Shown: positions 4,288-39,665 of the stretch, piece after piece | Numbering within the stretch: position 1 is the stretch's first letter | Layout: each line of letters opens with the position of its first letter | From: Pseudomonadota bacterium | Lineage (GTDB): Bacteria; Pseudomonadota; Gammaproteobacteria; Steroidobacterales; Steroidobacteraceae | Direction of reading: 5' to 3' | Length of the DNA: 46,593 nt | Assembly: GCA_947459825.1 (NCBI GenBank) | Contig: CANHFH010000007.1 | Coordinates: forward strand, 1 to 46,593 | Made by a program: the position numbers and the translations under genes | Notes under the pieces: generated by a model | Told to the model about the DNA's origin: nothing | Databases searched by the model: none | What the model saw: the letters and a program-made list of their open reading frames with translations, nothing else

Positions 4288-4757
4288 GCGGCGCGGCGGA
4301 GGCGCTTGCATCGCTGCAGGCACGCATCGGGCAAGAGGTGCATGTCAGCGACTGGATGACGGTGACCCAGGACCGTGTCGTCGCCTTCGCCGATGCCACG
4401 GGCGACCATCAATGGATCCATGTCGACCCCGATCGCGCGCGGCGCGAATCGCCGTTCGGCGGGCCGATCGCCCACGGCTATCTGACGCTGTCGCTGCAGA
4501 TCCTGCTGCGCGGACTGACCGGCGCCGAGCAAGCGGTGGCGCCCGGAGTCCGGCAGGCCGTGAACTACGGCCTCGACCGGCTGCGCTTCCCGGCGCCGGT
4601 CCCGGTGGGCGCGCGCATCCGCGGCCGCTTCACGCTGCTCGAGGCCGCGCAGGTCGCACCCGGCGTCCTGCAGGTGAAGGAGCGCTATACGGTGGAGGTC
4701 GAAGGCAAGGACAAGCCCGCCTGCATCGCCGAAAGCCTCTATCGTCTGTACTTCTAG
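4284..4757 (+). CDS. MaoC-like (R)-specific enoyl-CoA hydratase
   Basis: A 157-residue single hot-dog domain protein of the MaoC/NodN type, expected to hydrate 2-enoyl-CoA esters in the cytosol. The hydratase motif is intact: ATGDHQWIHVD with the Asp41/His46 pair, followed by SPFGGPIAHGYLTLSL. Its GTG start overlaps the stop of the upstream nitrilase-fold gene (GTGA), so the two are translationally coupled. The dehydrogenase gene follows after 22 bases, suggesting a three-gene operon handling an acyl or hydroxy-acid intermediate; the substrate is not readable from sequence. Confidence 0.88.
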   Translation: MSGAAEALASLQARIGQEVHVSDWMTVTQDRVVAFADATGDHQWIHVDPDRARRESPFGGPIAHGYLTLSLQILLRGLTGAEQAVAPGVRQAVNYGLDRLRFPAPVPVGARIRGRFTLLEAAQVAPGVLQVKERYTVEVEGKDKPACIAESLYRLYF

Positions 4758-4779
4758 CGACCGCGGGAGCGCGACCACC

Positions 4780-5739
4780 ATGACCGCGGTCTTCCTGGAC
4801 TTCGCCACCGTCGGCCGCGACGGGCTCGATGTGACGGCGCTGCGCGCGGCGGCGCCGGGGCTCGTGCTGCACGACGACACCACGCCCGACGAGGTCGCCG
4901 CACGGATCGCCGGCCACGAGATCGTGCTGCTCAACAAGGTGCGCATCACGCGGGCGCTCATCGAGGGGTCGCCTTCACTGCGGGTCATCGGGCTCACCGC
5001 CACCGGCACCAACAACATCGATCTCGATGCTGCGCGTGGGCGCGGCGTCGCGGTGCGCAACATCCGCGACTACTGCACGCCCTCGGTGGTGCAGCATGTG
5101 CTCGGCGTGCTGCTGTACCTCACGCACCGTCTGCCGCAGTACGCGCGCGAGGCGGTGGACGGCACCTGGGCGCGGAGCGCGACCTTCGGACTCACCCACC
5201 ACCCCATCCGCGAGCTGCGCGGGCGCGTGCTCGGCATCGTCGGCTGGGGCGCGCTCGGCAGCGCGGTGGCGCGCGCCTGCGAGTCGGCGCTCGGCATGCA
5301 GGTGATCGTCGCCGCGCGACCGGGTGACGGCGCGCCGCAGCCCGGCCGTGTGCCGCTCGACGAGCTGCTCGCGCGCGCCGATGTGGTGTCGCTGCACTGC
5401 CCGCTCACGCCGCATACCAACGGCATGATCGATGCGCGCCGTCTCGCGCTGATGAAGCCCGACGCGGTGATCATCAACACCGCGCGCGGCGCGTTGATCG
5501 ATCCGGCGGCGCTCGCCGCCGCGCTGCGCGACGGACGGCTCGGCGGCGCGGCCATCGATGTGCTGCCGCAGGAGCCGCCGGTGGACGGCAGCCCGCTGCT
5601 CGACCCCACGCTCCCGAACCTCATCGTCACCCCCCACATGGCTTGGGCGGCCCGCGAGTCCCGGCAGCGCTGCCTCGACGAATTGGGGGCCAACATCGCC
5701 GACTGGCGGGCAGGTGGCGACCGCGGCAGGGTGGTCTGA
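4780..5739 (+). CDS. D-2-hydroxyacid dehydrogenase (glycerate dehydrogenase-like)
   Basis: A 319-residue NAD(P)-dependent 2-hydroxyacid dehydrogenase. The Rossmann motif GWGALG lies at residues 155-160. The catalytic set is complete: Arg236 in NTARGAL, Glu265 in LPQEPP and His286 in TPHMAWA. Overall spacing and motifs such as GLTATGTNNID resemble hydroxypyruvate/glycerate dehydrogenases (HprA-like) more than phosphoglycerate dehydrogenase, since there is no ACT domain. It is the third gene of the operon with the nitrilase-fold and MaoC-like genes. The exact substrate is uncertain. Confidence 0.87.
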   Translation: MTAVFLDFATVGRDGLDVTALRAAAPGLVLHDDTTPDEVAARIAGHEIVLLNKVRITRALIEGSPSLRVIGLTATGTNNIDLDAARGRGVAVRNIRDYCTPSVVQHVLGVLLYLTHRLPQYAREAVDGTWARSATFGLTHHPIRELRGRVLGIVGWGALGSAVARACESALGMQVIVAARPGDGAPQPGRVPLDELLARADVVSLHCPLTPHTNGMIDARRLALMKPDAVIINTARGALIDPAALAAALRDGRLGGAAIDVLPQEPPVDGSPLLDPTLPNLIVTPHMAWAARESRQRCLDELGANIADWRAGGDRGRVV

Positions 5740-33583: not shown

Positions 33584-33922
33584 TCAGTCGCCGATGATTT
33601 CGTTGAGACCTTCGACCACCTGTGCCAGTTCTTCGGGCGAAGCACGCCCGAGCCGAGCGCCGATCCGCTCGACCGAAAGCGTACGGACCTGGCTGATCTT
33701 GACCCACGAGCGCTTCGGGAGGCGGCGATCGCCCAATTCCAGACTCAACGGGAACGCTGCGCGCGGTGTCTGGCTCGTCAGCGCCATGGCGATCACCGTG
33801 CCGGAGCGGTCGTTGAAGACATCGTGGCTGACCACGAGCACCGGACGCAGTCCGCTCTGCTCGTGGCCGCGGACCGGGTTGAGGTCCGCCCAACGGATCT
33901 CGCCCCTCAGTATGCGGGCCAC
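33584..33922 (-). CDS. MazF/PemK-family toxin
   Basis: A 112-residue endoribonuclease-type toxin: [27 protein letters not shown] is the family start, with the conserved Arg-Pro-Val core, then [11 protein letters not shown] and the C-terminal [13 protein letters not shown] with the catalytic-region Thr/Arg. The GTG at 33922 lies inside the end of the antitoxin frame (16-base overlap), which fixes the start; the longer open frame would run through the antitoxin. The two genes form the usual antitoxin-first pair. Confidence 0.9.
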
Positions 33923-34149
33923 GAGTCCAGTTCCTGCCCCAAGCCCTCTTCGGCCAACGACCGCTCCGCCTTCGGGTCGAGCTTCGCGCACTCGGCCGCG
34001 AGACGGCGGCGCTGCATCCGCGACAGCTTCTCCTCGACGGCGGCCTGGATGGCCCGGCTGCGGTTCGGGTAGACCTCCCTCGCGACGAGGTCATCGACGC
34101 TTTCGAGCGTCTCGCTGTCGAGCGTGATGGCGACCTTGACGGTGGTCAT
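33907..34149 (-). CDS. Ribbon-helix-helix antitoxin of the MazF/PemK-type pair
   Basis: An 80-residue CopG-like antitoxin. The first 45 residues ([39 protein letters not shown] in family order) form the DNA-binding ribbon-helix-helix, and the acidic/basic tail should wrap the toxin. It overlaps the toxin start. A dyad upstream of the ATG is a likely operator. Confidence 0.9.
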
Positions 34150-34166
34150 GACAGAGCTCTCATCGG

Positions 34167-34187
34167 AGTATTACAATTTATCATACT
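34167..34187 (-). promoter_or_regulatory. Candidate operator dyad for the MazF/PemK-type module
   Basis: AGTAT-N11-ATACT, with further symmetric A/T positions inside, lies 18-38 bases upstream of the antitoxin ATG in an AT-rich patch that also contains TATGAT-like hexamers. The position suits autorepression by the ribbon-helix-helix antitoxin. I could not fix the exact promoter. Confidence 0.45.
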
Positions 34188-34315
34188 ATGCACACATCTG
34201 TAGGCGAGTGCCACAAAGAAGGCCTGCCGTAGAACAGCGGCGATGATCGGGGCATCAAGCCGCGGATCCGGTCGAACGCACCAGAAATGCCCATATCGGA
34301 ACCCGTCGCCACCCC

Positions 34316-34735
34316 TCACTTGCGTGGCGTGCGATAGCCCCGCGCCCGCGCCTCCTCGAAGACCGCCGCGGCTTCCTGGGCCACCACCATCGTCTTGATG
34401 TCCCCGGGCGTGAGCGTGGCGAGCCACGCGCGGTACCGCGTGTCGTGCTCGGCACGCGCCTTCTTGAAGGCCGCGATCGCGGCTTCGCCGATGTTCCGCC
34501 GCCGCACCGAACGGGCGAAGATGGCGGCGAACTCCGCCGAGGTCTCGGCGGCGATGACGCGCTCGGTGTCGTACAGCGCCTTGCCCTTGAAGTTCGCCCA
34601 ATGGTTGACCGTGCCCCAGCTGTCCGGCCGCTTCAGCAAGCGGGCCACGAGGGCGCGTGTCCAACCGCGGTCGGCGAGCTGGGCGTGGTCGAGGTAGCGG
34701 ATGTCGTCGGGATCCGCGGTCGATTCATCGGTCAT
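34316..34735 (-). CDS. Hypothetical protein with helix-turn-helix-like N-terminus
   Basis: A 139-residue soluble protein. Residues about 13-65 (YLDHAQLADRGWTRALVARLLKRPDSW, then Y.TERVIAAETSAEF) match a small N-terminal module seen in many uncharacterised bacterial proteins, with the invariant RGWT. The rest is a charged helical domain. AGGAG lies eight bases before the ATG. No function can be assigned; it stands alone between two toxin-antitoxin modules. The flanking 34150-34315 holds only the antitoxin's upstream region. Confidence 0.7.
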   Translation of the reverse strand: MTDESTADPDDIRYLDHAQLADRGWTRALVARLLKRPDSWGTVNHWANFKGKALYDTERVIAAETSAEFAAIFARSVRRRNIGEAAIAAFKKARAEHDTRYRAWLATLTPGDIKTMVVAQEAAAVFEEARARGYRTPRK

Positions 34736-34870
34736 GGGCGCTCTCCTCGATCTGGATGATCACGACAGAAACAGCGCTGGCGACCGCTGATGGTCGCATG
34801 ACAGCCTTGTTTACAGCCCGAACGCCCGAAGCAGGCGGGAGCGGACCGGGCCGGCGCAGACATCCTCCAG

Positions 34871-34899
34871 TTGATTTATTGTATACGCGTATATACATT
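34871..34899 (+). promoter_or_regulatory. brnTA promoter with palindromic operator
   Basis: TTGATT (34871-34876), a 17-base spacer and TACATT (34894-34899) end five bases before the brnT ATG, so the message should have almost no leader. The spacer contains the perfect 12-base palindrome TATACGCGTATA (34882-34893), a natural operator for the BrnA antitoxin or the BrnTA complex. Confidence 0.6.
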
Positions 34900-34903
34900 A
34901 TTC

Positions 34904-35182
34904 ATGTCGTTCACTTATGACCCCCGAAAAAGCCGCAGAAGCATCGTCGAGCGCGGCATCTCCTTCGATCTGGCAGAGCGGTTCGAATGGGACCGCGCGT
35001 GGGTCGTCGAAGACCTGCGGCGCGACTACGGGGAGAGACGTTTCCGGGCCTTGGGCATGATCGAAGGCCGTCTGCACGCCTTGGTGTTCACGCCGCGCGA
35101 GGCGGTGGTCCACGTGATCAGCCTCCGTAAAGCGAATCATCGGGAGATCAGGAGATATGAAGCGCAAACCCTCGAAGAGTGA
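34904..35182 (+). CDS. brnT: BrnT-family toxin
   Basis: A 92-residue RelE-fold ribonuclease toxin: TYDPRKSRRSIVERGISFDLAERF at the start, DYGERRFRALGMIEGRLHALVFT in the middle and VISLRKANHREIRRYE at the end, which are the BrnT motifs with the expected Arg and Glu residues. The ATG at 34904 is the first that follows the promoter. It overlaps brnA by 26 bases, toxin first, as usual for this type. Confidence 0.92.
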   Translation: MSFTYDPRKSRRSIVERGISFDLAERFEWDRAWVVEDLRRDYGERRFRALGMIEGRLHALVFTPREAVVHVISLRKANHREIRRYEAQTLEE

Positions 35183-35480
35183 CCCCGCGCCCCGACGACG
35201 ACGCTCGGGTCGCTCCGGTACCGGTGTCAACCCGGAGTGGACGGAGACAGACTTCGCGCAAGCTAAACCGGCCGCTGAAGTGCTTCCCGATCTCGTCGGC
35301 TCCGAACGCGCCGAGCGTCTCCTGCGGCCTAGAGGCCGCCCCAAAACGGGCAACGCGCGCACGCTCATCTCGCTGCGGTTGCCGCCGGACACGCTTGCCC
35401 GTTGGAAAGCGACGGGCCCCGGCTGGCAGACGCGGATGGCCGACCTGCTCGGGCGGGCTGTGCGCCATCGCGCGGCCTGA
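35157..35480 (+). CDS. brnA: BrnA-family antitoxin
   Basis: A 107-residue antitoxin: a basic Arg/Lys/Pro-rich head, a toxin-binding middle (NPEWTETDFAQAKPAAEVLPDLV) and a C-terminal ribbon-helix-helix (RTLISLRLPPDTLARWKATGPGWQTRMADLL). The DNA-binding part at the C-terminus and the overlap with brnT match the BrnTA type II system. It converges with the S-adenosylmethionine synthetase paralogue, 27 bases apart. Confidence 0.9.
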   Translation: MKRKPSKSDPAPRRRRSGRSGTGVNPEWTETDFAQAKPAAEVLPDLVGSERAERLLRPRGRPKTGNARTLISLRLPPDTLARWKATGPGWQTRMADLLGRAVRHRAA

Positions 35481-35507: not shown

Positions 35508-36725
35508 TCAGGCTGCGGCACGCCGGTGCTCCGCAATCGGGGTCGCTACGTCCTCCCACCACGCCCCCGGTGCGGCCGGATGTCCCCAGCGCGCGAGTTC
35601 GCCCGTCACCAACGGGGCGTATTCGCTTTCGCGCAGCTGCGCGTGCATCGCGCGTGCGGCCGCGCGCGTGGAGGTGACGGTCAACCCCGCCGGCAGCGGC
35701 ACCGCACGGCCGTCGGCCCACACGCTGACGGACTCGGGCGCGATCGAGTTCGGGCGGTACTCGAGCCGCACCGTCACGCGCTGGCCGAGGCCGGCCTGCA
35801 CGCACTGCAGCGCGAGCCGGCGCGCGACCATGCCGCCGGCACGATCGGGCTTGTAGCAGTCCTTGCCGCTCCACGCGCCGCCGCCGATCGGTACGCCGGG
35901 TCCGTAGGCATCCATCACGAGCTTCTTGCCGGTGGTGCCGTTGTCGCCCGTCGGGCCGCCGCAAAGGAACATGCCGGCAGCGTTGAGGGTGAGGTCGGGC
36001 AGCGGCGCATCGGCGGTCATCGCACCGACGGCATCGTCGTCGGTCAGCGCGTCGCGCAGCGCCTGCTGCGCGTGGCGGCGCATCTGCAGCCAATCGGCAT
36101 CCACCGCATGGTGCAGCGACACCGATACGGACTGCGGTACGAAACGGCCGTCGGCATGCTCCTCGCCGCGCACGATCACCTTGCCGTCGGGACCGATCGG
36201 GCCCTGCGGATCGCGCTGCTGCAGCGTGTGCAACGCGCGCGCGATGCGCCGCGCGGTCCACAGCGCACCGGGCAGATGGCCGGTATCGGGCGTCGCCTGC
36301 GCATAGCCGATGCAGATGCACTGGTCGTCCGACAGATGCCGCAGTTCCTGCCAATCCTCGCCGCGCTGCTCGATACGCAGTGCGCTGGTGTCGATGTGCA
36401 GCGCCTCGGGCAGCGGATCCCAGCGGCCGCCGTAGCCCGCGGAGCGGTAGGTGTCGCGCACCCAGTCCGCGATGCGCGCGCCGATGTCGGGCAGGCGCAC
36501 GGTGTCGAATCCGATCAGCCCGGTCACGAACACGCGGTCGAAGGCGCAGGCCACCTCGATGCCGACCTGGCCGTAGGGGTCGAGGCGCGCCACCTCACCG
36601 ACGATACGATCGGCGATCGCATCGCAGAGTTTGTCGGGATGGCCGGGCAGCACCCACTCGGCGACAGTCGTATCAACAGCGGCGCGTGGGCTGCGGATGT
36701 CGCTCATGTCGTTCGTCGTGCTCAT
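35508..36725 (-). CDS. Divergent S-adenosylmethionine synthetase paralogue
   Basis: A 405-residue methionine adenosyltransferase-fold protein, predicted to make SAM from methionine and ATP. The signature motifs are present but altered. GHPDK is intact, with Pro instead of Glu just before the Gly. The usual GDQG loop reads DDQC. The P-loop-like GGPTGDNGTTGKK has Lys in place of the first basic Arg. GGGAWSGKDCYKPDR is intact. This is not the housekeeping MetK sequence. The ATG at 36725 gives the family start; GAGG lies about ten bases upstream. It follows the metallopeptidase-vWA frame by 14 bases, so they are probably cotranscribed. It may serve a special methylation or polyamine-type pathway, or work poorly. 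Confidence 0.8.
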   Translation of the reverse strand: MSTTNDMSDIRSPRAAVDTTVAEWVLPGHPDKLCDAIADRIVGEVARLDPYGQVGIEVACAFDRVFVTGLIGFDTVRLPDIGARIADWVRDTYRSAGYGGRWDPLPEALHIDTSALRIEQRGEDWQELRHLSDDQCICIGYAQATPDTGHLPGALWTARRIARALHTLQQRDPQGPIGPDGKVIVRGEEHADGRFVPQSVSVSLHHAVDADWLQMRRHAQQALRDALTDDDAVGAMTADAPLPDLTLNAAGMFLCGGPTGDNGTTGKKLVMDAYGPGVPIGGGAWSGKDCYKPDRAGGMVARRLALQCVQAGLGQRVTVRLEYRPNSIAPESVSVWADGRAVPLPAGLTVTSTRAAARAMHAQLRESEYAPLVTGELARWGHPAAPGAWWEDVATPIAEHRRAAA

Positions 36726-36739
36726 CGTTTCTCTTCCTC

Positions 36740-38089
36740 TTATCTTTTCCGGTCCAAAGGCGGGATGCGCATCACGGGCCAAGCGGGCACTGCGCAGAAA
36801 CGCCCGTCGCAGCCGTCGAGCAGCCCCACGCGCACCACCGGGCGCGCGTCGCGCAGTCGACGCAGCTGCCCCTCGGTGAGGCGTTGCACTTCGCCGTCGG
36901 TGACGATCACCGCGCGGCGGATGCGCTGCTGCAGCAAGTGCTCGGCGACGCAGGCGATGTCGGTGCCACCGTCGGAGCGCACACGGCCGGCGGCGAGATC
37001 GCGGCGGGTGAGCGGATGCACCACGGTCGAGAACCCGTACAGGGGCCAGCGCACGAGCTGCGCGGACTCGTTGACGGCCTGCAGCAGCACCTGCAACCAC
37101 GCCGCCATCGATCCCGAGACATCGAAGTACACGGCCACCTGCCCCGCCTGCTGCAGCGCGTGGTGCTGCGCCTCGATGTTCCAGAGCAGGGGCGTCGCAC
37201 CCATCAGCCGCTGCAGTTGCGCGCGCCGATCGCCGCCCTGCGGCAACGGCGTCAGCGACGGCACCGTGACCGTCTCGGGCAGCCACGGTCCGTTGTCGGC
37301 GCCGTTCGCCGTGCGTGCGAGCAGCGCGCGGATCGCCTGCCGCGCCGCAGCATGCTTGCGGAGCGGGTTCTGCACCCACTCGAGCGGGCCGCCGTCATCG
37401 GTGCCGCCGCGCCGCTCCACCATCGGCCAGCGCGCGACGATGCGCTGGACCTCGCGATGCAGGTCCGGGTCGGCGTGCAGCGGATCGCCCGTCGTCGACC
37501 CGGCCCGGTGATCGCCGAGCAGCCGGTGCCCGTCCACAGCCAGATCGATGGCGATGCCGTCGAGCGGCGCGAAGAGCTCGGTCGTGGTCGCGCCCTGGTC
37601 GTCGTAGAGCCGACGGTGCACATCGCCCAAGCGCCCCGCGGCGTAGCGGGGCTTGTCGGGCCAGCCGGGCGGCGGAGCGATCAGGCTCCACGCCCCCTCT
37701 GCGGCGGCCGAGGCCGAGAAGAACGAGGTGAACTACACCGACGGATGCAGCAGACAGAGCTGCGCGTTGATGATGCAGTCGAAGGCCCAGTTCGCGGCCG
37801 GTGTCGAGCGCGCGTACATCCGCGTGTGGCCGAGCAGTACATGGTAGAGCTCGTGCATCACGAGCATCGCGAGGTGCGCGTCCGTGCGGCAGCGCGCCGC
37901 CACGAAGTCCGGGTTGACGAGCATCACCGACCGCGCGCCGAGCGTGACCGCCGCGGTCGGGACCTCACGCGAGATCTCGATAGCGAGCAGCTGCAGCAGT
38001 TTGCCGAAGGCGGGATGACGCAGCGGCACGCTCTGACGGATGCGGTCGCCGAGCAGGCGCTCGCCGAGATCGACGGGTTCAGCGGCCAT
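36740..38089 (-). pseudogene. DUF2201-type metallopeptidase-vWA protein interrupted by one in-frame TAG
   Basis: Two open stretches in the same frame form one typical protein of about 449 residues. The N-terminal part (from ATG 38089) has the zinc-peptidase motif HELYH (residues 79-83) and NWAFDCIINAQL. The C-terminal part has a von Willebrand A-like metal site: DVSGSM, GGTDIA and VIVTDGE. Codon 119 is TAG (37733-37735), right after LLHPSV, and the frame continues with FTSFFSASAAAEG without any other stop to 36740. Family proteins are single chains of this layout, often next to a MoxR-type ATPase. Either a recent nonsense mutation, a sequence error or readthrough explains it; I list it as a pseudogene with that caveat. 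Confidence 0.75.
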
Positions 38090-38864
38090 ACGGTGTCCTC
38101 GGGGTCCAGAGTTCCCAGATGCCCGACGGCGACTCGCCCCGCCACAGGTCGAGCAACCGCGTGAGCGTCGGCGCGGGTGGGCGTCGTTCGTATCGCAGCG
38201 CGGTAGCCGGGTCCATGCCGAGGGGCGCACCGAAGCCCACCGCCGGCACCCACGCCGGCCAAGGCACGGCCTGCAGGCGCTCGGCCAATTCGCTGACGAG
38301 TGCGCCCTCGGGCAGGTCGGCCAAGCGGATGAGTTCGGTGCGCGGAGAGCGACGCTTGCGTGCCGAGGTAGCGGTCACGGCCTCGACCCGCGCCACCGCG
38401 ACCAAGGCCCGCGCGAGACCGAGCGGTGCCACGAGCCGCCCGTACTCATAGCCCATACCGAGGCGCGCGCAGAGCGCTGCAGGGAGATCCACCTGCGCGA
38501 AGCACAGCGCGTGCGAAAGCATCGCACCGCCGCCCGGTCCGACGGCGATCGTGCCGTCAGCGGCGCCCGTTGTCCGGGACGCGCCCGCGCCGGGCATCTG
38601 CGATGCAGTACCCGCTGCGGCCTGCGGCGCAGCGCCCTCCCCCCCATCGCGCTGCCCCAACCTCGGCATCACCACGGTGGAGCGCGGCGGAGCGCACATG
38701 TTCCCCCAGACGGCGACCACGTCTGAAGTGAGCAGCGCGGGGTTCAGCAACGCGGGGATAGCATCGCAGAGGCGCTCGGGTCAGGCGGCATGGGCGTCCG
38801 GCGCATCGAGATGAGAAAGCCCGTGCAGCCCGAGGGCCGACAGAAGGTCCGTACGCGTCGCCAT
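38079..38864 (-). pseudogene. Unknown gene interrupted by one in-frame TGA, upstream of the metallopeptidase-vWA gene
   Basis: The ATG at 38864 is preceded by GGGGAG at good distance. It opens a 27-codon frame (MATRTDLLSALGLHGL...) that stops at TGA 38781-38783. The same frame then runs on for 233 further codons to 38079, where it overlaps the next gene's ATG by 11 bases. The continuation begins PERLCDAIPALLNPALL and contains ALCFAQVDLPAALCARLGMGYEYGRL and a C-terminal SGIWELWTP. It has normal codon use and no family I can name; I see no Walker motif, although an ATPase is common at this place. The start signal and coupling to the next gene suggest a real gene with a single nonsense codon or recoding. 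Confidence 0.5.
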
Positions 38865-38982
38865 GTCGCCGCTCCCCACCGTCCACGCGCGCAGCGCAGG
38901 CGGCGCCGGACGGAGGGGGGCGCTGCCGACGCTTTAGCAGTATTTGTGGATCGCCCTGCAAGTTGTCGCTTAAGGAGGCGAT

Positions 38983-39013
38983 GAAAACAAAACGGCCCTC
39001 GAGAGCGAGGGCC
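38983..39013 (-). terminator. Rho-independent terminator (minus strand)
   Basis: On the minus strand, GGCCCTCG-CTCT-CGAGGGCC (39013 to 38994) is a perfect 8-pair stem with a four-base loop, followed by GTTTTGTTTTC. It can end either a short RNA begun at about 39136 or transcription from the small gene at 39300-39665. It lies 119 bases upstream of the ATG at 38864, so it may also work as an attenuator for that operon. Confidence 0.85.
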
Positions 39014-39136
39014 GTGTGCCTGCTGGTGTTGCGCCTGCTCCCGTGGAGCGGCGCCTCATCCCGGTTGACCCGGTTGCCACCTTGCCGCAGGACGGCAGGT
39101 TGGCGACAGGCAGGCAGCCTGTGCTCTGGATGACTC
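38984..39136 (-). ncRNA. Candidate structured leader RNA or small RNA
   Basis: A 150-base minus-strand segment lies between a good promoter and an intrinsic terminator and folds by eye into five helices. P1: TCATCC (39133-39128) with GGATGA (39061-39056), closing the 5' domain. P2: ACAGG with CCTGT (39122-39106). P3: GCCAaCCTGCCG with CGGCAaGGTGGC (39104-39076). P4: GCGCC..CTCC with GGAG..GGCGC (39054-39031). P5 is the terminator. P1 encloses P2 and P3 as in a three-way junction. No riboswitch class I know matches. It stands upstream of the operon ending in the SAM synthetase paralogue, so cis-regulation is a reasonable guess. A 50-codon open frame on the other strand (38981-39133) is the competing reading. 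Confidence 0.45.
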
Positions 39137-39141
39137 GTCAA

Positions 39142-39170
39142 AGCATACGGAACGGTTTTCCTGAGGGCAA
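39142..39170 (-). promoter_or_regulatory. Candidate promoter for the structured RNA
   Basis: On the minus strand TTGCCC (39165-39170), a 17-base spacer and TATGCT (39142-39147) resemble a sigma-70 promoter, with a start predicted near 39135. The remaining gap to the next gene, 39171-39299, shows nothing else I can identify. Confidence 0.5.
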
Positions 39171-39299: not shown

Positions 39300-39665
39300 T
39301 CAGCGGCCCCCGTTGCAGCGACTATCGGCGCAGATCAGGCCCTGGTTGCCCAAGTCCTCGCGGAACGCCCGCTGGGCCTGCTCCGCCGCCTCAAGTTCGA
39401 TCCGGGTGAAGCACTCGCTGCGCTTGATGCGAGTGCCAGCCGGGACCACTTGCCGGCAGTAGACCTCTTTGCCCTTGCGGAGACGCTTCTGGTAGCCCTC
39501 CGGGGGGACATATTCTTTGTTGTCGCGCGTCTGCGGCGCCTGGCTCACGACCGACACGGCCGACGGAGCGGCATCGGCCTTGGCCTGCCGCTCCTGCGCG
39601 CTCACCCATGGCACCGCTACGCACAACAGCGACACCGCCAACACCCGGATAGCTCGCTCGTTCAT
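39300..39665 (-). CDS. Small exported protein with Cys/Arg motif, unknown
   Basis: A 121-residue protein with a signal peptide of about 27 residues (ending PWVSA). The mature part contains the pattern VYCRQVVPAGTRIKRSECFTRIELEAAEQAQRA. A Cys-x-(10)-Gly-(S/T)-Arg-x(5)-Cys-x-Thr layout like this recurs in small uncharacterised secreted proteins of proteobacteria. The C-terminus adds LICADSRC, so four cysteines in all. AGGAGG lies ten bases upstream of the ATG at 39665. It follows the hydroxylase gene by 38 bases and may be cotranscribed. Confidence 0.72.
   Translation of the reverse strand: MNERAIRVLAVSLLCVAVPWVSAQERQAKADAAPSAVSVVSQAPQTRDNKEYVPPEGYQKRLRKGKEVYCRQVVPAGTRIKRSECFTRIELEAAEQAQRAFREDLGNQGLICADSRCNGGR

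Follow-up and report, generated by a model that had tools for sequence, protein, structure and literature searches.

The SAM-I/IV riboswitch class has already been described (Weinberg 2010, PMC2864571; PMC6890682), and SAM aptamers are known to occur in series. The tandem-riboswitch review PMC9481103 counts 2 cases of SAM-I/IV followed by SAM-II, 7 of the reverse order and 44 SAM-II pairs, and its tandem bi-mechanism SAM riboswitches include SAM-II/SAM-V. Pairs of MoxR and vWA proteins such as NorQ/NorD equip an enzyme with its metal cofactor (PMC9976466). The leader described here lies on the minus strand of a 46,593-nucleotide stretch of bacterial DNA (hereafter the window), in front of an operon with MoxR-like, vWA and SAM synthetase-like genes, and it adds to the known, rare SAM-I/IV-then-SAM-II arrangement.

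Results

Identity and fold of the first element

The first element and its parts are as follows.

39015..39138, minus strand: SAM-I/IV aptamer (RF01725, model R1, pair counts)
39133-39129/39060-39056, minus strand: aptamer P1 (model alignment and pair counts)
39122-39118/39110-39106, minus strand: aptamer P2 (model alignment and pair counts)
39104-39076, minus strand: aptamer P3 (model alignment and pair counts)
39073-39070/39064-39061, minus strand: aptamer P4 (model alignment and pair counts)
39054-39051/39034-39031, minus strand: aptamer P5 (model alignment and pair counts)
39091-39087/39023-39019, minus strand: PK-2, P3 loop with 3' tail (pair counts)

In an Rfam scan, RF01725 (SAM-I/IV riboswitch) matched positions 39138-39015 of the minus strand over the full model length, with 44.6 bits against a gathering cut-off of 41.1 and an E-value of 0.0004 when the entire window is searched with every family. 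A genome-wide scan gave this match as the only one in the source genome, and RF01725 was present in 8 of 60 genomes, the source genome being counted in both numbers. A preliminary description of this DNA had recognised no known SAM riboswitch consensus and had proposed a covariance-model search against Rfam; that search named the class. Besides the known RNA class, the description had missed the 27-codon first frame, the stop in the DUF2201 gene and the second aptamer-like element, all described below. The idea of a new riboswitch class was dismissed, as Rfam names the RNA RF01725, and matches to Ms_IGR-5 and rpfG sRNA were set aside as below the Rfam cut-off.

All of P1, P2, P3, P4 and P5 are present in the window aptamer, as seen from the model alignments and from pair counts on an alignment that includes the window, and P2 is drawn in the R1 alignment as a single 5-pair stem with a closing pair. 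The preliminary description had folded P1 around two hairpins, whereas the aptamer fold has three inside it (P2, P3 and P4); the fourth stem-loop that it listed does exist and corresponds to P5.

To assess this assignment independently of the window, we used alignment A2 and model R1, made from 11 SAM-I/IV relatives with the named structure, the window excluded. R1 scored the window at 48.1 bits (E 2.6e-10), the runner-up place in the window reaching 8.2 bits, and in A2 91.4% of cells were paired, with 36 double-change cells versus 13.0 in shuffles. In alignment A10 (21 sequences including the window and its nearest relative, locus L171), which was fitted to R1 so that nested helices are favoured, 93.9% of cells were paired and 82 were double-change cells versus 21.5 in shuffles, and versions of the structure slid along the alignment paired at 33-45%. 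PK-2 is absent from R1, and on A10 it showed double changes in 6 of its 6 pairs, the helix being 84.5% paired with one outer pair mostly unpaired. Compensatory changes in relatives, which the preliminary description had suggested looking for, were thus found in the helices and in PK-2 alike. A base change in J1/2 of the window was considered as a sign of decay and dropped, because other SAM-I/IV loci vary at the same place.

These results show, at the level of sequence, that the first element belongs to the SAM-I/IV class with its helices and pseudoknot, and SAM is its probable ligand. It is improbable that a variant of the same fold senses a SAM relative instead. Rare SAM-I variants sense spermidine (PMC10853860), the operon includes an unusual synthetase, and the R1 score of the window is below that of most relatives (most 60-110 bits); however, its core bases (P1, P3 and the GA of J1/2) are those invariant in a 12-sequence alignment that includes the window, and the genes under control in relatives are methionine and SAM genes.

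Terminator and candidate antiterminator pairing

39142..39170, minus strand: promoter-like TTGCCC-17-TATGCT, just 5' of the aptamer (read from sequence)
38985..39015, minus strand: intrinsic terminator, 10-pair stem and U-rich tail (terminator scan)
39106..39126, minus strand: candidate antiterminator strand (J1/2-P2), complementary to 39023-39006 (PK-2 tail and terminator 5' arm)

The terminator of the preliminary description was recovered by the scan: a stem of 10 pairs at 39015-38992 is followed by TTTGTTTT, with 1 terminator found versus a mean of 0.2 in shuffles. The L171 leader also has a terminator, with an altered loop. The promoter-like pair fared less well, since TTGCCC (39170-39165) and TATGCT (39147-39142) are indeed present on the minus strand and agree by eye with 8 of 12 consensus bases (4 + 4), but a promoter scan with a minimum of 9 matches found none. 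The roughly 150 structured bases were borne out, as RNA 39142-38984 has a folding energy of -80.6 kcal/mol, compared with a mean of -62.6 (sd 4.7) over 200 shuffled versions, none of which was as stable (z -3.85). This minimum-energy fold is an alternative one, distinct from the aptamer.

If formed, the candidate antiterminator helix precludes P2 and PK-2 as well as part of the terminator. In the window the duplex reaches -22.7 kcal/mol with 12 pairs and a 2-base mismatch, 22 and 17 of 2000 shuffles being as good; in L171 it reaches -33.2 kcal/mol with 14 contiguous pairs, and shuffling either strand 2000 times gave no duplex as good. When pseudoknot and ligand energies are left out, the alternative fold beats aptamer plus terminator both in the window (-80.6 versus -62.7) and in L171 (-74.7 versus -53.8), and the minimum-energy fold of L171 retains the alternative helix and the terminator together.

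A pairing that excludes aptamer and terminator is the usual logic of a transcriptional SAM OFF switch. The complementarity itself is evident in the window, and the leader would switch in the OFF direction: with SAM bound, P2 and PK-2 would hold, the terminator 5' arm would be free and transcription would stop near 38985, whereas without SAM the J1/2-P2 strand would pair with the PK-2 tail and the terminator 5' arm, so that polymerase would read on.

The alternatives in which the RNA does not regulate the operon are highly improbable: a trans-acting small RNA, a 3' end belonging to the gene at 39300, or a protein encoded on the other strand. The terminator could close a short transcript and plus-strand frames do exist; nevertheless, the leaders of the window and L171, 85% identical over 268 bases, begin to resemble each other at P1, and the similarity runs to the operon side, away from the gene at 39300. 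Together with the covarying RNA pairs, this led us to reject the 3' end of that gene. The opposite-strand frame, which the preliminary description had weighed as a conserved protein, was rejected because L171 has single-base gaps inside the region that break the shared frame, and because the RNA pairs covary.

A SAM-II-like element between terminator and start codon

38913..38991, minus strand: SAM-II-like element (models R3 and R2; pair counts)
38982-38977/38955-38950, minus strand: P1 of the SAM-II-like element (pair counts)
38968-38965/38930-38927, minus strand: pseudoknot of the SAM-II-like element, loop to tail (pair counts)

A second element was found with R3, a SAM-II model trained on 21 RF00521 sequences, none of them from these leaders, and with R2, which additionally includes the first copies of loci L179 and L180 (see below). 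All E-values of R2 and R3 are rough because the calibration was short. For 38991-38913, R3 gave 15.6 bits (E 0.01, rough), the best in the window, with the next at 8.0; R2 gave 18.2 bits (E 0.002, rough), again the best match in the window. Over the whole loci of L171 and of L158, another relative, the best R3 match likewise fell between terminator and start, with 22.9 bits (E 3.9e-5, rough) and 17.4 bits (E 0.0011, rough), respectively. The post-terminator leader is as similar between the window and L171 as the aptamer is, and in the window this stretch also aligns with the second, SAM-II-like copies found in L179 and L180.

According to the pair counts, P1 and the loop-to-tail pseudoknot are present in the window. 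Across 11 related elements 94.3% of cells were paired, with 13 double-change cells versus 4.7, the number of pairs with a double change (4 versus 3.2 in shuffles) being not unusual. The window keeps CUUGC and GCUAAA, and has CUCCUUA where SAM-II has the conserved loop GAUUUG. These data indicate that the second element is related to SAM-II; we call it SAM-II-like, not a member of SAM-II, because GAUUUG is not kept and because Rfam RF00521 gave no match to it even at E 10. With part of the conserved motif lost, the window copy may be inactive. In relatives an element at this position, near the ribosome site, would likely limit translation as a second stage.

Genes of the window operon

38872..38913, minus strand: CCGTCC/GGACGG hairpin and Shine-Dalgarno-like GGGGAG (38877-38872), before the ATG at 38864 (read from sequence)
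38781..38864, minus strand: remnant of a MoxR-like AAA+ ATPase, 27 codons (similarity to the L171 ATPase)
38079..38699, minus strand: orf1, open frame of 206 aa, no known family (frame and domain scans)
36740..38089, minus strand: DUF2201_N and vWA gene with an in-frame stop at 37735-37733 (Pfam scan)
35508..36725, minus strand: MetK2, divergent methionine adenosyltransferase relative, 405 aa, open frame (Pfam, TIGR01034, tree)

The preliminary description had correctly placed a start codon with a ribosome binding site about 120 bases after the terminator (GGGGAG at 38877-38872, ATG at 38864). The frame that opens there is an ATPase remnant, whose LLSALGLHGLSHLDAP corresponds to LLSSLGLHGLSHLDAP in the L171 ATPase (543 aa). 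The DUF2201 gene matches PF13203 in its first piece (1.6e-7) and PF05762 in its second (3.1e-5, below its cut-off). Thus, as assembled, two genes of the window operon are broken, the ATPase being truncated and DUF2201 split, while the MetK2 frame is open. MetK2 (36725-35508), the divergent methionine adenosyltransferase that had been noted earlier, matches PF02773 (3.6e-19) and PF00438 (4.3e-12), with PF02772 below cut-off, and scores 140.8 bits against the MetK equivalog TIGR01034, short of its cut-off of 309.4. It retains the motifs HPDK, PDGK, GD and SGKD, which we take to be the active-site motifs of SAM synthetases. The canonical metK of the source genome lies on another contig (C63) and is followed on the same strand by a SAH riboswitch (RF01057, 53.9 bits, L160 3571-3647, minus strand).

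Our main reading, to which we give a probability of about 70%, is that the leader has the design of a SAM OFF gate in two stages, a SAM-I/IV terminator switch followed by a SAM-II-derived element; with the ATPase lost and DUF2201 interrupted, it would either still serve the synthetase or be on its way to a relic. The transcription-attenuating riboswitch of the SAM pathway proposed in the preliminary description is accordingly still the best reading, given RF01725, the covariation, the terminator and the exclusive pairing, with the reservation that the operon is partly broken. We regard it as unlikely, if less so than the two alternatives above, that the leader is already a relic, descended from a working tandem SAM riboswitch and, after the gene loss, regulating nothing that matters. 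The reduction of the ATPase to 27 codons, the in-frame stop, the missing part of GAUUUG and an antiterminator weaker than that of L171 all fit such a relic; a search of the source genome found no other ATPase copy, although, run without a positive control, it shows little. On the other hand, the SAM-I/IV helices, PK-2 and the terminator are retained, and the MetK2 frame is open with a pairwise dN/dS of 0.245 versus L171 (own script), a value that pools both lineages; the DUF2201 pieces gave 0.245 and 0.358.

A role in anti-phage defence was also considered and rejected, because a PADLOC scan of 6 operon proteins gave no convincing match: two of them had short AAA-type matches, 3 in all, the best at 2.4e-5 to mad8. 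Two type II toxin-antitoxin pairs adjoin MetK2 (window 33587-35477):

33587-33991, minus strand: PemK/MazF-like toxin (pair 1)
33910-34149, minus strand: ribbon-helix-helix protein (pair 1)
34874-35179, plus strand: BrnT (pair 2)
35157-35477, plus strand: BrnA (pair 2)

These pairs and the patchy operon hint at an acquired island.

Operon and leaders in relatives

The nearest relative of the window locus, L171, shares a contig of the uncultured bacterium Loclat_bin-11984 with L128. Its SAM-I/IV riboswitch (45.6 bits, Rfam) is followed by a MoxR-like ATPase (543 aa; AAA_5 2.1e-9), orf1 (269 aa), DUF2201_N/VWA_CoxE (463 aa), in which DUF2201 is intact, and MetK2. The operon coding DNA is 73% identical to that of the window in one 2424-base alignment, orf1 of the window being 43% identical to the L171/L128 relative and the two MetK2 proteins 75% identical. 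Past the operon, L171 also has a second, partial C-terminal copy of MetK2 with a stop (4730-4963).

More generally, relatives have an operon that opens with a MoxR-like ATPase, may include orf1, continues with DUF2201/vWA and in most cases carries a divergent SAM synthetase. SAM-I/IV has the ATPase as its first downstream gene in L171, L172, L158, L077, L032 and L178, and DUF2201 follows the ATPase in each; in L084 it is placed after another gene and a SAM-II match, and L025 has a 151-aa piece of it. MetK2 lies downstream in L171, L172, L158, L179, L180 and the window, while L157 has vWA and MetK2 on a contig that ends before any leader, and the L032 and L077 stretches end near DUF2201. No MetK2 was found in L178, where the sequence continues past DUF2201 to rRNA genes, which counts against a fixed operon. 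In a tree, 7 MetK2 proteins stood on one side of a branch (100/99) and 26 other SAM synthetases on the other, with long branches that make false joins possible. In L172 the ATPase operon lies behind a tandem pair of SAM-I/IV riboswitches scoring 73.9 and 64.5 bits, at 1469-1571 and 1658-1763, with a terminator-like hairpin after the first and a hairpin over the Shine-Dalgarno sequence after the second.

Loci other than L178-L180 give no measure of how the riboswitches associate with the operon, because they were found via riboswitch or MetK2; the measure is confined to those few found by a riboswitch-blind search with an ATPase alignment. It gave hits in 4 of 369 genomes of the class at E 1e-40 (G648, G437, G498 and G453), the G453 locus being cut by a contig edge. 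Of the three with upstream sequence, one has SAM-I/IV and two have SAM-II (one below cut-off). In G648 (L180) a SAM-II match (RF00521, 37.1 bits, cut-off 36) is followed by a terminator, a second, SAM-II-like copy (17.9 bits) and the ATPase; G437 (L179), of the same genus, has a similar leader with 29.0 and 15.8 bits, both below cut-off; and G498 (L178) has SAM-I/IV at 65 bits before the ATPase. A phylum-wide search found the ATPase in 0 of 398 genomes, among 3 candidates scored for each, and 72,556 plasmid records contained no relative at 1e-20.

The leaders thus combine SAM-I/IV with a SAM-II-like element (window, L171, L158), SAM-I/IV with itself (L172), or SAM-II with a SAM-II-like element (L179, L180). 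We tentatively suggest, as a possibility short of an even chance, that ATPase, orf1, DUF2201-vWA and MetK2 form an undescribed module for SAM homeostasis or a SAM analogue, in which the chaperone pair would serve MetK2, and that its two-level SAM OFF leader was assembled repeatedly from unrelated aptamers. That MetK2 might be the client of the MoxR/vWA pair is a guess.

Survey of SAM-I/IV loci

First genes, defined as the longest frame of at least 110 aa starting at most 600 bases after SAM-I/IV, could be called at 93 of the 117 loci; 88 of them were scanned. The families found among these 88 were homoserine O-succinyltransferase (11), Beta_elim_lyase (6), DUF3293 (6), SAM synthetase (5) and AAA_5 (5), which is consistent with a SAM switch. 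An order of SAM-I/IV, intervening gene and SAM synthetase recurs in L015, L081, L112, L120, L121 and L025, the intervening gene shown for L025 being DUF3293; in L015 and L081 a SAM-II match overlaps the synthetase start.

R3 was run on 100 sources, each chosen for an R1 match; not in this set were L116-L134, L011, L029, L053, which shares its contig with L158, and loci matching R1 weakly or not at all. At E <=0.1 it gave 13 matches in 12 of the 100 loci, L171 and L158 among them, 2 of the 13 being weaker than E 0.05. All 13 lie on the SAM-I/IV strand within 1.3 kb of it, 9 after SAM-I/IV (five at 13-56 bases) and 4 before.

A protein family with MGGEYLP-like and VVDEY-like motifs and no Pfam or NCBIfam match was seen downstream of SAM-I/IV in 6 of 118 stretches:

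L009 2595-3317, L010 6546-7193, L013 7417-8043, L014 7489-9102, L015 3327-3713 and L097: family with MGGEYLP-like/VVDEY-like motifs

Comparison with known systems

The window and its relatives provide new cases of a rare arrangement, with two unrelated SAM sensors in one leader, the worn second half of which Rfam misses. They also tie SAM sensing to an operon of unassigned function, so that the identity of the switch becomes a testable clue to the role of MoxR/vWA and synthetase in SAM metabolism, and the window seems to show a leader outliving its adjoining gene. In the open-access literature we found no publication on a MoxR/vWA/DUF2201/SAM synthetase operon or on a link between MoxR and a riboswitch, and the accessible part of the review PMC9481103 contained no mention of MoxR/vWA genes.

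With the SAM-I/IV class the first element shares P1-P5, P4 included, and PK-2 between the P3 loop and the 3' tail, and its P2 is drawn as unbroken; it differs in a score near the cut-off, an enlarged P5 and a P2 strand that is also the candidate antiterminator. The second element shares P1, the pseudoknot, CUUGC and GCUAAA with SAM-II (SAM_alpha, RF00521), but is below Rfam detection and has GAUUUG largely replaced. Like NorQ/NorD (PMC9976466), the operon pairs a MoxR-type ATPase with a vWA protein; it also includes DUF2201_N and a relative of SAM synthetases, and it lies downstream of SAM riboswitches. Finally, the leader resembles the tandem SAM riboswitches reviewed in PMC9481103 in having two aptamer classes in series, with a terminator at the first and the second near the ribosome site, and it differs from them in that its second aptamer is worn and its operon carries MoxR/vWA genes.
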